Positions 40,461 to 46,444 of a DNA stretch of 64,000 bases are shown one piece after another (the stretch's first letter is position 1; every line of letters begins with the position of its first letter). The notes beneath the pieces are model-generated. The model worked only from the letters and a program-made list of their open reading frames with translations, had not been told where the DNA came from and made no database searches. Origin of the DNA: Gemmatimonadota bacterium (lineage in GTDB: Bacteria > Gemmatimonadota > Gemmatimonadetes > Gemmatimonadales > Gemmatimonadaceae). The DNA lies in contig PLCA01000013.1 in NCBI GenBank assembly GCA_003134685.1, positions 106,373 through 170,372 of the forward strand. Reading direction: 5' to 3'. The translations under genes were made by a program, and so were the position numbers.

Positions 40461-41513
40461 GTGAGCGAGATGGCTGTTTCGACGGTTCAGGAAGACAAGA
40501 AGAAGGCCTTGGGCCTGGCGATCGCGCAGATCGAAAAGAACCACGGCAAGGGCGCGATCATGAAGATGGGTTCGACCGATTCGCGCGTCCGTGTCGATGC
40601 GATCTCCACGGGCGCCATCAACCTCGACGCCGCCATCGGTGTCGGTGGAATCCCGCGTGGCCGCGTGACCGAGATCTACGGTCCTGAGTCGAGCGGCAAG
40701 ACCACGCTCTGCCTCCACGTCGTCGCCAACGCGCAGAAGGCGGGCGGAACCGCCGCCTACATCGACGCCGAGCATGCGCTCGATACCGACTACGCGATCA
40801 AGCTCGGCGTCGACGTCGAGAACCTCCTCGTCTCGCAGCCGGACACCGGTGAGCAGGCGATGGAGATCTGCGAGATCCTCGTCCGCTCGGGCGCCGTCGA
40901 TGTCGTCGTGATCGACTCGGTCGCGGCACTCGTGCCGAAGGCCGAGATCGAGGGCGACATGGGTGACTCGCACATGGGTCTCCAGGCGCGCCTCATGAGC
41001 CAGGCGCTGCGCAAGCTCACCGGCGCGATCGCCCGCTCCAGGACCTCCGTCATCTTCATCAACCAGCTCCGCGAGAAGATCGGCGTGATGTTCGGCAACC
41101 CCGAGACGACGACCGGGGGCCGGGCGCTCAAGTTCTATGCGTCGGTGCGCCTCGACATCCGCCGCATCGCGCCCGTGAAGGAGAAGGAAGAGGTGATCGG
41201 GTCGCACGTCCGCGTGAAGGTCGTGAAGAACAAGGTCGCGCCGCCGTTCAAGCAGGCCGAGTTCGACATTATGTACTCGGAGGGCATCAGCCACGCGTCG
41301 CTCGTGCTCGACATCGCGGCCGAGTCGGGAATCATCGACAAGTCCGGCGCGTGGTACAGCTACGGCGCGCAACGAATTGGTCAGGGTCGTGAGAATGCGA
41401 AGATGTACCTCAAGGACAATCCCGCGCTGCTCGCCGAAGTCGAGGAGAAGGTGAAGACCGTCCTCGGCATCAAGCCTCCGGTCGACGAGGTCGAGGTCGA
41501 GCTGGCGGATTGA
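40461..41513 (+). CDS. recA: Recombinase RecA
   Basis: [81 protein letters not shown]. Confidence 0.98.
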
Positions 41514-41977
41514 CGCGCCCCCGGCCGACGGCGTACAACTACGCGCTGAGCCTGCTGGCGGCGCATCCTTACGCCTCGATCGGGCTGCGCCGAAAACTGA
41601 TTCAGAAGGAATACCCGGCGGCGGACACGGATGACGTGATCCGCCGCCTTCTCGATAATGGGCTTCTGAACGACGCGAAATTCGCCGAGCAGTACGCGCG
41701 CTCGAAGATGCTGAGCACGGGCGCGTCCAAGCGGCGGCTCACGCAGGATCTCTATCGCAAGGGGATCAAGGGCGAAGTCGCGACAACCGCCATCGCCGCT
41801 GTGGTCGAGCAGGACGAGATCGATCCCGCCGCGCTCATGGAGCGGGTGGCGCGGAAAAGGCTCGCGCAGCTCGGCGATCTCGAGCCCGTTGTTCTCCGCC
41901 GCCGGCTCTTCGCTTTCCTTGCGCGCCGCGGGTACGATCTGGACGAGATCAAATCCGTCGTCTCGCGGTTAGCCTAG
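41510..41977 (+). CDS. recX: Regulatory protein RecX
   Basis: Immediately after rec[41 protein letters not shown]. Confidence 0.85.
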
Positions 41978-41997
41978 AGCTGCATCTTTGTCGGTGC

Positions 41998-42452
41998 GTC
42001 GGAGGGGATCCTCTTCGGCTCCAGGCTCTCGCTCGTGGCGGCACCAACCTTTGGTGCGGGTGCCTGTTGTGTCGCGCTTTGTGGAGTCGTACCGATCTCT
42101 CTGTCGCTCGTGGGTTGTCGCCTACGAGGACCCCCTCCGACTCCCCTTCGAGTGCATCGCTCGGTTAAGCACTCGACCTCGCGCCTCCTTCAGTCAGAGA
42201 TCGTTGCGCGGGAGCGCGCCGAGCGAAGCTCGGCGGGTCCGTGAGAGAGTCAGCGGGCGCGCGGATCGCCCCTGAACGCGCGCGCTGTTGCGACACTGTG
42301 CAGGGAGGTGAGGGTGTGCTCGGAGGGAGCGGCCGGAGCCAGCGCCGCTGCCAGGCGGCGCGGTTCAGCGAGCCGCAAGGCGAAGCTGAAGGCGAGAGCT
42401 CCCGCAGAGGACACCCTCACCGACCACATACAGAGATGCCAGTCGAAACGCG
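41998..42452 (+). repeat. Direct repeat copy 1 (~455 bp) flanking the Uma2 gene
   Basis: Collinear with 43184-43632 at high identity; contains hairpin block A (41998-42141) and block B (42307-~42425). Confidence 0.95.
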
Positions 42453-42456
42453 GGCT

Positions 42457-43029
42457 CTAGGCTAACTCGCCGTGCGCGCGGGCGAACAACTCCGCGAGAT
42501 CGATTGTGAGCGGGGGATGCTCGGTCTGCGGTTGCCACTCGATAATCTCCGACAGCGTTTCTGCTCGCGTATCGGCGGGACGCCACCGGTCGATCACCCG
42601 CGCGTCAGAGTCGACGATCCAATATTCGCCCACCTGGAATCGCTGATACAGCAGGCGCTTTCGGTGCCGATCCGCGCGCGCGGTTGACGGAGACAGGATC
42701 TCGACCGCGAGCAGCAGAGATTTGATGTCTTTCCAGGATGTTGACTTCTGAACAAGATCGTGCGGGACGACGAAGATATCGGGCTCGACCACGTTTCGCG
42801 GATCGACTATCACGTCCCCCGGCGCAAAGAAGCCGTAGCCCACTGGGTACCGGGCCAGGTAGTTGGCTATCAGTCGGCCCAGCTCCCACTGCACGCGCTG
42901 GTGCCCGAACGCGGGCGGCGGAGTCACGAACAATTCGCCGTCGATGATCTCGTAGCGGTTCCCGTCTTCGGGAAGCGACTCGAGCATATCGTAGGTCCAT
43001 TCCTTCGTCGTCGCGGCGGCCATTCCCAT
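42457..43029 (-). CDS. Uma2 family endonuclease (DUF820-like)
   Basis: YEIIDGELFVTPPPAFGHQRVQWELGRLIANYL; VEPDIFVVPHDLV; LLAVEILSPSTARADRHRKRLLYQRFQVGEYWIVDSDARVIDRWRP. Confidence 0.9.
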   Translation of the reverse strand: MGMAAATTKEWTYDMLESLPEDGNRYEIIDGELFVTPPPAFGHQRVQWELGRLIANYLARYPVGYGFFAPGDVIVDPRNVVEPDIFVVPHDLVQKSTSWKDIKSLLLAVEILSPSTARADRHRKRLLYQRFQVGEYWIVDSDARVIDRWRPADTRAETLSEIIEWQPQTEHPPLTIDLAELFARAHGELA

Positions 43030-43183
43030 ACTCTAAACTCCTCGGCGAAAGGCGAGCAAGAGCGCATTTCGGCACCATAGCTTTCCACGGGCGTGCGAGC
43101 GTCACCGTCACGCTCCCGCAGGCAGCGAACTCGCGCACGCCGTCGTCTCGCGTCTGAGCTAGCCGGCCCCTCGTTTCCGGTAC

Positions 43184-43632
43184 GTCGGAGGGGGTCCTCT
43201 TCGGCTCCAGGCTCTCGCTCGTGGCGGCACCGACCTGTCGTGCGTGGCCGTGTTGTATTGCGCTTTGCGGGGGCGTACCGATCTCTCTGTCGCTCGTGGG
43301 TTGTCGCCTACGAGGACCCCCTCCGCCTTCCCATGGGATACTCGGCGTTGCCATGCGTTCGCCGCCGCGCCTCGCTCGTCTGAGATCGTCGCGCGGCAGC
43401 GCGCCGAGCGAAGCTCGGCCTATCCGTGAGAGAGACACGGGCGCGAATGGCCTTCGACGCGCGCGCTGTTGCGACACTGTGCAGGGAGGTGAGGGTGTCC
43501 TCGGAGGGAGCGGCCGCAGCCAGCGCCGCCGCCAGGCGGCGCGGTTCAGCGAGCCGCAAGGCGACGCTGAAGGCGAGAGCTCCCGCAGAGGATACCCTCG
43601 CCGACCACATACAGAGATGCAAGCCGGAGCGC
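43184..43632 (+). repeat. Direct repeat copy 2 (~449 bp)
   Basis: See copy 1; includes cctcttcggctccaggctctcgctcgtggcggcacc and gcgacactgtgcagggaggtgagggtgt. Confidence 0.95.
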
Positions 43633-43660
43633 GACAAAAGGAGCGCGTATATTTACGAGC

Positions 43661-46444
43661 ATGACGGCCGCCGAAATCCGCAAGAAATTCACCGAGTACT
43701 TTGAACGCAACGGGCATGTCGTCCATGCGAGTTCGCCAGTAGTGCCGGGCGACGATCCGACGCTCATGTTCACGAACGCGGGGATGGTGCAGTTCAAGAA
43801 GGTGTTCCTGGGCCAGGAACAGCCGCCCGGTGGCTCGCGTCGCGCCACGACCGTGCAGAAGTGCGTGCGGGCCGGCGGGAAGCACAACGACCTCGAGCAG
43901 GTAGGCCACACCGCGCGGCATCACACGTTTTTCGAGATGCTCGGGAATTTTTCCTTCGGCGACTACTTCAAGAAGGATGCAATCCGCTTCGCCTGGGAGT
44001 TCGTGACGAAAGAGCTGAAGCTCGATCCGAAGCACATCCGCGTCACTGTTTACGAGGAGGATGACGAGGCGCGCGCTCTCTGGCGCGAGATCGCTGGACT
44101 TTCGGACTCCCGCATTTACGGACTCGGCGCGCACGACAACTTCTGGCAGATGGCGGACACCGGTCCCTGCGGTCCATGCACCGAGATCTTCGTCGACTTG
44201 GCTCACGTCGCAAAGGATTTTGCGTTTCCAGCGGGCGCCAAGGGCGAGTGGACCGAGATCAAGCGGAAGGAATTCTCAAAGGATGCGTTCGTCGAGGGAG
44301 CAGAGGCGGGCAGGTTCCTCGAGTTCTGGAACCTCGTCTTCATGCAGTTCGATCGGCAGCCCGATGGAACGCTGGTGCCACTCCCCAAGCCGTCGGTTGA
44401 TACCGGGGCCGGCCTCGAGCGCATCGCCGCGATCATGCAGGGGGAATCGAACAATTTCCACGCCGATCTTTTTCAGTCGCTCATCAAGGCGGTCGAGAAG
44501 GCGATCAAGCAGAAGTACGATCGTGGGGAAGGCGGCGCATCATTCCGCGTCATAGCGGATCATAGCCGCGCGGTGGCATTTCTCCTCGGCGACGGAGTGT
44601 TTCCTTCGAACGAGGGGCGGGGCTACGTCCTGCGCAGAATCCTCCGTCGTGGTGTGCGCCACGCGTGGCTGCTCGGTCGCCGGCAGCCGACGCTGGTGGA
44701 AGTCGTGCGCGTTGTCATCGACCAGATGGGCGATGTCTATCCCGAGCTGCGCAATCGCTCGCAACACATCATTGACACCACACGCGCGGAAGAGGAGCGC
44801 TTCCTCTCGACGATCGAAGGCGGGATGCGCCGCTTCGACGAGCTCGCACCGACGAAAACCACGCAGGGATCGACCGCAATCCACGGGACGATCGCCGGCG
44901 AAGATGCATTCAAGCTTTATGACACCTTCGGATTCCCAATCGACCTCACCGAGTTGATGGCCCGCGAGCGCGGGTACTCGGTAGACATCGCGGGATTCGA
45001 AGCGGCGCTACAGGGACAGCGAACGCAATCCCAGGAAGAGCGACGCTCAAAGAAAGTCGGTGTGGAAGCCGATGCGTTGGGTGCGAGCTGGATCGTCGGG
45101 ACGAGCGCATCGCAGTCGACCGCGGAGGGTGGGTCGACCGCGGCGCGGAGCGCGGGTCAGGGAACCATCAGCGATATGTTGTCGGGCGAGACTCGGTTCA
45201 CCGGCTACGATTCCCTCGACGTCACGACCGAAGTCGTCGCCAAACACGATCTGCCCGATGGACGCGCCGCCGTAATACTTCGTGAGACGCCGTTCTATGT
45301 CGAGTCCGGCGGACAGATCTCCGACCGCGGCGAGATCAAGGGCGATGGCTGGAGCGTTGACGTCGACGAAGTCCGCAAAGTCGATGGACGCATCACCGCA
45401 CTCGGAAAAACCACCGGCAAGGTGCAACTCGGAAAGGCGAGAGCGACGGTGCCGCGCGATCGTCGTCGCGACACCGAGCGCAATCACACCGCCACCCACC
45501 TCCTCCACGCCGCCCTCAGGCAAGTCCTCGGCGAGCACGTTCAGCAGCACGGCTCACTCGTCGCGCCGGATAGACTGCGATTTGATTTCTCGCACCACGG
45601 CCCGCTGAGTCAGCAGCAGCTGGCTGATGTCGAGAGCATCGTCAATCGTGGAATTCTCGACGGCGTTCAGCTCACGTTCGAGGAGAAACCCAAGGCCGAA
45701 GCGTTTGCAAGCGGCGCGATGCACCTCTTCAACGAGAAGTACGGCGATGTCGTGCGAGTCGTCAGTATCCCCGGGCTGAGCATCGAGCTTTGTGGTGGCA
45801 CGCACGTCCGCAACACGGCTGAAATCGCCCTCTTCAAGATTGTGAGCGAGACAGGCAGCTCGGCGGGAGTCCGGCGCATCGAAGCGGTGACGGGCCGCGC
45901 CGCGCTCAATCTCTTCCGCGAGCACGAGCGCGAGCTGAAGGAAATCGAATCGCTGGTGCGCGCGCCCGCTGGCCAGGTGGTGAAGCGCGTGCATGCTCTG
46001 GTCGAGGATCGTCGTGCACTCGAGAAGCGGCTCGACGAAGCGATCCGGACCGGTGGCGGTGGCAGCGCGATCAAATCGCTCGTCGAACAGGGCTCGGTCG
46101 TCAATGGCGTGAGAGTCGTGGCGGCGAATGTGACCGCGGCGGACCTGCCCGCGCTTCAGGCGATGGGTGACGCGCTGCGTGAGCAGATGGAATCGGGCGT
46201 TGGGGTTCTCGCGGCATCGTTCGACAACGGCAAGAATACAATGCTCGCAGTGGTGAGCGATGATCTGCGCGACCGTGGGGTCCGCGCCGACATCATTCTT
46301 CGCGAGCTGGCCGCGTCCGCGGGCGGGAAGGGAGGCGGTAAGCCGCACATGGCGCAGGCGGGAATTCCCGACGCGGCGCGCATGGCGACGGCGGTCGCGG
46401 ACGCGCCGGAGATGATCCGGAAGCACCTCGCCGCGACCGCGTGA
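43661..46444 (+). CDS. alaS: Alanyl-tRNA synthetase
   Basis: IRKKFTEYFERNGHVVHASSPVVPGDDPTLMFTNAGMVQFKKVFLG; GGTH motif region LSIELCGGTHVRNT. Confidence 0.97.
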   Translation: MTAAEIRKKFTEYFERNGHVVHASSPVVPGDDPTLMFTNAGMVQFKKVFLGQEQPPGGSRRATTVQKCVRAGGKHNDLEQVGHTARHHTFFEMLGNFSFGDYFKKDAIRFAWEFVTKELKLDPKHIRVTVYEEDDEARALWREIAGLSDSRIYGLGAHDNFWQMADTGPCGPCTEIFVDLAHVAKDFAFPAGAKGEWTEIKRKEFSKDAFVEGAEAGRFLEFWNLVFMQFDRQPDGTLVPLPKPSVDTGAGLERIAAIMQGESNNFHADLFQSLIKAVEKAIKQKYDRGEGGASFRVIADHSRAVAFLLGDGVFPSNEGRGYVLRRILRRGVRHAWLLGRRQPTLVEVVRVVIDQMGDVYPELRNRSQHIIDTTRAEEERFLSTIEGGMRRFDELAPTKTTQGSTAIHGTIAGEDAFKLYDTFGFPIDLTELMARERGYSVDIAGFEAALQGQRTQSQEERRSKKVGVEADALGASWIVGTSASQSTAEGGSTAARSAGQGTISDMLSGETRFTGYDSLDVTTEVVAKHDLPDGRAAVILRETPFYVESGGQISDRGEIKGDGWSVDVDEVRKVDGRITALGKTTGKVQLGKARATVPRDRRRDTERNHTATHLLHAALRQVLGEHVQQHGSLVAPDRLRFDFSHHGPLSQQQLADVESIVNRGILDGVQLTFEEKPKAEAFASGAMHLFNEKYGDVVRVVSIPGLSIELCGGTHVRNTAEIALFKIVSETGSSAGVRRIEAVTGRAALNLFREHERELKEIESLVRAPAGQVVKRVHALVEDRRALEKRLDEAIRTGGGGSAIKSLVEQGSVVNGVRVVAANVTAADLPALQAMGDALREQMESGVGVLAASFDNGKNTMLAVVSDDLRDRGVRADIILRELAASAGGKGGGKPHMAQAGIPDAARMATAVADAPEMIRKHLAATA

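Follow-up and report, generated by a model that had tools for sequence, protein, structure and literature searches.

Inverted hairpin doublets around a Uma2 gene between recX and alaS belong to a dispersed Gemmatimonadetes repeat family with exchanged heads

Introduction

Intergenic palindromes of bacteria are usually short and conform to a single consensus per family. Closest to the elements described here are the REPINs, doublets of inverted REP sequences that form hairpins, also occur as singlets and display compensatory changes (PMC3116915). REPs have a GT(A/G)G head (PMC2817692), and a bias toward convergent and tandem gene pairs has been reported for them (PMC3733652). Gemmatimonadetes go unmentioned in the text of two REP surveys (PMC3733652, PMC12306157), and our literature search found no described Gemmatimonadetes repeat or RNA of the present kind.

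The window, by which we mean the whole stretch of 64,000 nucleotides that was analysed, comes from a 3.6 Mb Gemmatimonadetes genome (G000). Between recX and alaS it carries two copies of a structured repeat on either side of a Uma2 gene. Below we compare this locus, and the family to which the repeats belong, with REPINs and with other known systems.

Results

Two copies of a hairpin doublet flank Uma2

An earlier note, made from the letters of the window, had placed two collinear and highly similar copies on either side of a minus-strand Uma2 gene, each holding four occurrences of one motif that switch orientation from one to the next. Both observations held, and the coordinates were right: the copies lie at about 41996-42452 and 43182-43633 with a spacing of 1181-1186 bp, they are 86% identical across the unit (398/461 aligned columns), and the motif GAGGGNGTCCTC is present four times in each, orientation alternating, with 0-1 mismatches [Table 1]. 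The heads of the hairpins (90% identity on the left, 96% on the right) are more conserved between the two copies than the spacer that separates them (76%). The protein encoded between the copies matches the Uma2 family PF05685 (E 3.6e-28).

Table 1. Coordinates of features of the recX-alaS region in the window
Feature	Position	Strand	Remarks
recX	41510..41977	+	Upstream neighbour
GTTAGCCTAGAGC	41968..41980	+	At recX 3' end; exact inverse GCTCTAGGCTAAC at Uma2 3' end, 42454-42466
Copy 1, left hairpin module	41996..42143	-	Stem arms 41996-42013 and 42126-42143; head type Ia, 42014-42125; folding strand minus
Copy 1, spacer	42144..42302		Poorly conserved; small perfect hairpin GCCGAGCGAAGCTCGGC at 42218-42234
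Copy 1, right hairpin module	42303..42425	+	Stem arms GGTGAGGGTGTGCTC and GAGGACACCCTCACC either side of head type II, 42322-42406; folding strand plus
Copy 1, outer flank	42426..42452		ACATACAGAGATGC...; many further elements have it at their outer end too
Uma2 gene (PF05685)	42457..43029	-	Between copies 1 and 2; outside the repeat family
Copy 2, left hairpin module	43182..43329	-	Stem arms 43182-43199 and 43312-43329; head type Ia, 43200-43311
Copy 2, spacer	43330..43483		Small hairpin GCCGAGCGAAGCTCGGC again, at 43403-43419
Copy 2, right hairpin module	43484..43606	+	Head type II, 43503-43587
Copy 2, outer flank	43607..43633		ACATACAGAGATGC...; stops ~29 bp ahead of alaS start
alaS	43661..46444	+	Downstream neighbour

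The unit belongs to a dispersed family

Searched against its own genome, the unit matched 39 stretches at E <= 7.5e-4, far above chance, which, when the loci were read individually, resolved into at least 19 doublets and two single modules (C5:408.6k and C5:703.1k); there are about 40 modules per genome. The search that the earlier note had called for returned a dispersed family, found in relatives as well. The public relatives recovered by an exact-pattern search, palsa_1244 and Chersky.30_11 among them, are metagenome-derived genomes of Gemmatimonadetes. With a covariance model built on type II modules, matches came from 10 of 19 members of the genus, and 61 genomes from other genera gave none. 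On a recA tree the carriers form one side of a branch with weak support (41/38). Two further genomes, G004 and G001, are placed near the carriers (92/94), and one divergent module was later read in each. Short matches to the type II core in G019 and G034 are apparently coincidences in coding-like sequence, with no surrounding stem.

No Rfam family matches the element even at E = 1, and an origin as a known Rfam RNA was rejected on this absence of covariance-model matches; a plasmid or phage origin was likewise rejected, since the plasmids, phages and viral contigs searched contained no match to the element. The family is non-coding and lineage-specific, and was found only in one group of soil bacteria.

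In G000 the elements occupy 11 convergent, eight tandem (one of them ftsA-ftsZ) and two divergent gene pairs, as called with a simple codon-based gene caller that leaves a few neighbours weakly supported.

One stem, many heads

Each doublet is built, in order, of an outer flank, a left module folding on the minus strand, a spacer, a right module folding on the plus strand and a second outer flank, and this polarity is kept in all 46 doublets with both heads annotated, including one that lies at a contig end of palindromic sequence. A module, about 125-160 nt long with its stem, consists of a 14-18 bp stem topped by a near-invariant TCCTC/GAGGA, followed by a 3x3 internal loop (on the outward strand typically GNA facing GAA). 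Beyond the loop comes a branched head, 80-130 nt in length, whose core foot reads GTAG, GCAG, GGAG or TGAG inside the longer stem. In the divergent modules of G004 and G001 the TCCTC/GAGGA pairing is altered on both arms (TTCCC/GGGAA, GTCTT/AAGAC). At least eight head types, several of them unrelated, are found on one and the same stem (Ia, Ib and Ic; II; III; IV, in G011; V; VI; VII). Head II is a three-way junction with two GNNA-type loops; head VII carries apical perfect palindromes whose sequences are unrelated between species. A reading of the stems as intrinsic terminators was rejected, since no T-run follows them in the sequences read.

A mini-hairpin, GGGTGCCCGC-N-GCGGGCAG, was also seen inside heads of several types (L014:3271-3371, L049, L069, L080, L086), a palindrome nested in palindromes.

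Covariation and strand asymmetry

The earlier note had proposed a covariation check across copies, and this gave strong support for type II and, for type I, support for the stem and for the beginning of the head. Pairing is kept in 97% of cells for the type II module, where 16 of 44 pairs display two-sided compensatory change; shuffles gave 6.8, and sliding the structure gave no more than 4. Stem position 6 is TA, GC, AT or CG depending on the copy. The flanking sequences on the two sides of the stem pair as well, and each matches its own partner better than it matches the partners in other elements (-23.5 vs -19.8, sd 0.66).

The two strands are not equivalent. Read on the outward strand, modules from either strand of the loci contain 38 G.U against 9 A.C pairs (binomial P 2e-5, a value that ignores shared ancestry; 21 vs 8 when unique stems are counted). 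This excess points to folding of the outward strand as a single strand, RNA or single-stranded DNA, rather than as a cruciform. It bears directly on a third-ranked explanation, which we regard as improbable, namely that the elements are duplex-DNA or cruciform sites, for instance for gyrase or a nucleoid protein, a role that has been proposed for BIMEs. Being palindromes that form symmetric, mostly intergenic doublets in all gene orientations, they would suit such a role; however, a cruciform exposes both strands, so that G.T and A.C should be equally frequent, and heads unrelated in sequence nevertheless have a common fold. For the folded outward strand we infer RNA as more likely than DNA, GNNA-type loops and G.T pairs being compatible with single-stranded DNA as well. 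Of the structured-RNA role that the earlier note had thought conceivable, the structured nucleic acid is thus borne out by strong covariation and a family-wide architecture, and the RNA itself is probable at most.

Sites are shared between species while heads differ

Every G014 locus tested, together with the majority of loci in the remaining carriers, aligns to a gene gap that is also occupied in G000; the relatives' loci were located through element matches, and the comparison accordingly covers occupied sites. The heads at these sites follow a different course. Between G000 and G014 (flanks ~94% identical) 19 heads are the same and 4 of 23 differ, against G002 (~88%) four are the same and 6 of 10 differ, and against G016 (~82%) a single head is the same and 7 of 8 differ (counts that include the single module at C5:703k). 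In the alignments of the ftsA-ftsZ locus (L012/L054) and of L014/L053 the change is limited to the interval TCCTC..GAGGA, stem and flanks being continuous, as is the spacer in L014/L053. Read from these alignments, sites are inherited vertically while the heads on them are replaced; the genomes of the relatives are metagenome assemblies in fragments, palindromes misassemble easily in them, and some head deletions or swaps may be artefacts.

Metagenome contigs often end in or beside the hairpins (L055, L043, L056, L059 and other relatives), and this repeat class is therefore probably under-reported in assemblies.

The stability of the sites weighs on the explanation that ranks second, and that we consider rather unlikely: a decayed foldback or MITE family of an extinct transposase, devoid of function, whose ends are nested palindromes, whose arms are kept complementary by quasi-palindrome template switching and whose heads change by illegitimate recombination. 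Template switching at palindromes can indeed produce compensatory arm changes, and the elements are non-coding, bear terminal inverted repeats, are limited to one clade, lack a linked transposase and occur as doublets plus occasional single modules, with small hairpins inserted in several heads. Yet they stay at the same sites despite ~20% flank divergence, and no fresh insertion site was found among the carriers at the loci checked, which are occupied in all scorable carriers and empty only in non-carriers. The empty sites are too diverged for a target duplication to be read; inverted ends are present on the elements. The persistence of asymmetric internal loops and GNNA-type loops, and the excess of G.U over A.C on one strand only, also argue against this explanation.

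Uma2 is a passenger at one site

Among the family loci examined, the repeat-Uma2-repeat arrangement is unique to the recX-alaS site. There G000 has two doublets and Uma2, G011 and G017 have one doublet without Uma2, and in G003, G012, G015 and G018 the genes nearly abut (gap of 35-98 bp); the comparison leaves out G002, in which the contig is broken within the element, and G014, which has no assembled alaS match. The inspection of loci lacking Uma2 suggested in the earlier note thus yielded single doublets as well as near-abutting genes. In G013 the gap (L085) is filled by 1.4 kb of unrelated sequence, which includes a lipoprotein-like gene and an intrinsic terminator of the ordinary sort.

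The earlier note had also entertained a homing or cassette role, in which Uma2 would be a mobile element framed by its own repeats. The position of the gene exactly between two copies, and the naming of its family as putative restriction endonucleases, are suggestive of such a role, but the idea is largely refuted and now seems very improbable. Elements occur at about 20 other sites, and all other element loci are without Uma2; G011 and G017 hold a single doublet and no Uma2 at the very same site, and a close Uma2 homologue was found in no other carrier, the best (53% identity) being in an element-free species. No linkage of Uma2 to the repeats was seen at further sites or in the other carriers. 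Uma2 is a recent, lineage-specific passenger between the two copies, and the second copy and Uma2 may have arisen by local duplication and gene gain in the G000 lineage.

Copy 1 is enclosed by a 13-bp perfect inverted repeat, one half of it at the 3' end of recX and the other at that of Uma2, which is consistent with a palindrome-linked rearrangement at the arrival of Uma2. Both genes end in ..LA-stop because their 3' ends share this repeat. Upstream of copy 2 lies a possible fossil of the recX tail, the 13-bp CCGTCGTCTCGCG in register; 38 of 1000 random pairs gave an equally good local alignment, the match is not significant, and a tandem duplication of recX tail and element is therefore only suggested.

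Discussion

The nearest known kind is the REPIN/BIME, because the doublet arrangement, the singlets, the compensatory changes and the gene context are alike: here too, two inverted palindromic units and a spacer form a largely extragenic element. The foot GTAG/GCAG/GGAG is possibly comparable with the GT(A/G)G of REPs (PMC2817692), but lies inside a longer stem. The elements depart from that kind in transposase, in the size of the unit and in the lack of one consensus. The modules, of about 150-200 nt in this comparison, are far longer than the 20-40 bp REP unit, and a REP family has one consensus whereas the present elements set several unrelated branched heads on one stem; unlike REPINs, they occupy sites common to species, with no movement seen. 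As the earlier note had reported for the locus, no transposase accompanies the repeats: the REP-associated RAYT (PF01797) has no match in the G000 genome, and among the other carriers G016 alone has a weak match, with no element motif nearby. Mobilisation by a RAYT was rejected on these grounds.

MITEs and TIRtrons, the TIR repeats of tyrosine transposases (PMC3733652), are similarly non-coding and have inverted repeats, some with self-complementary tracts, but for the present elements no cognate transposase was found, the sites checked are stable across the species that could be scored and the internal hairpin heads are exchanged. With structured RNAs of the Rfam type they share covarying stems, GNNA-type loops, internal loops and a three-way junction, and differ in their inverted pairing and in that the whole head is the variable part. 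G000 also contains a separate repeat of ~200 bp (L013:1790-2000; C5:~719290-719500) with long terminal inverted repeats AACTGCAAATGAACGA...TCGTTCAGTTGCAGTT, which has many copies of 72-85% identity in G014 and other genus members and looks like an ordinary MITE. Possibly related to it is a palindromic repeat at L013:7245-7455 (C5:~724745-724955) with AACTGCAACT-like ends and repeated GATCTCGGATC.

The most likely reading, and on balance a probable one, is that of a functional inverted hairpin doublet selected for its structure, an oversized relative in kind of the REPIN/BIME, whose heads are exchanged by recombination. Recombination among the dispersed copies, or gene conversion, would replace the heads by way of the shared stem and TCCTC/GAGGA, and the doublet may serve at the ends of genes as a two-sided structural element, in RNA end protection, processing or protein binding. 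A further-reaching version, which we put forward tentatively as a possibility, would see fixed chromosomal stems as receptacles for structurally distinct heads swapped at TCCTC/GAGGA, so that every species would have, at conserved gene ends, a repertoire of structured RNA (or single-stranded DNA) of its own, with structure and outward pairing under selection.

Conserved sites and polarity combined with replaced heads amount to a natural experiment that separates stem, head and position. The question whether REP-like repeats are functional or selfish becomes directly testable in such a system, and REP-like biology would extend to Gemmatimonadetes.
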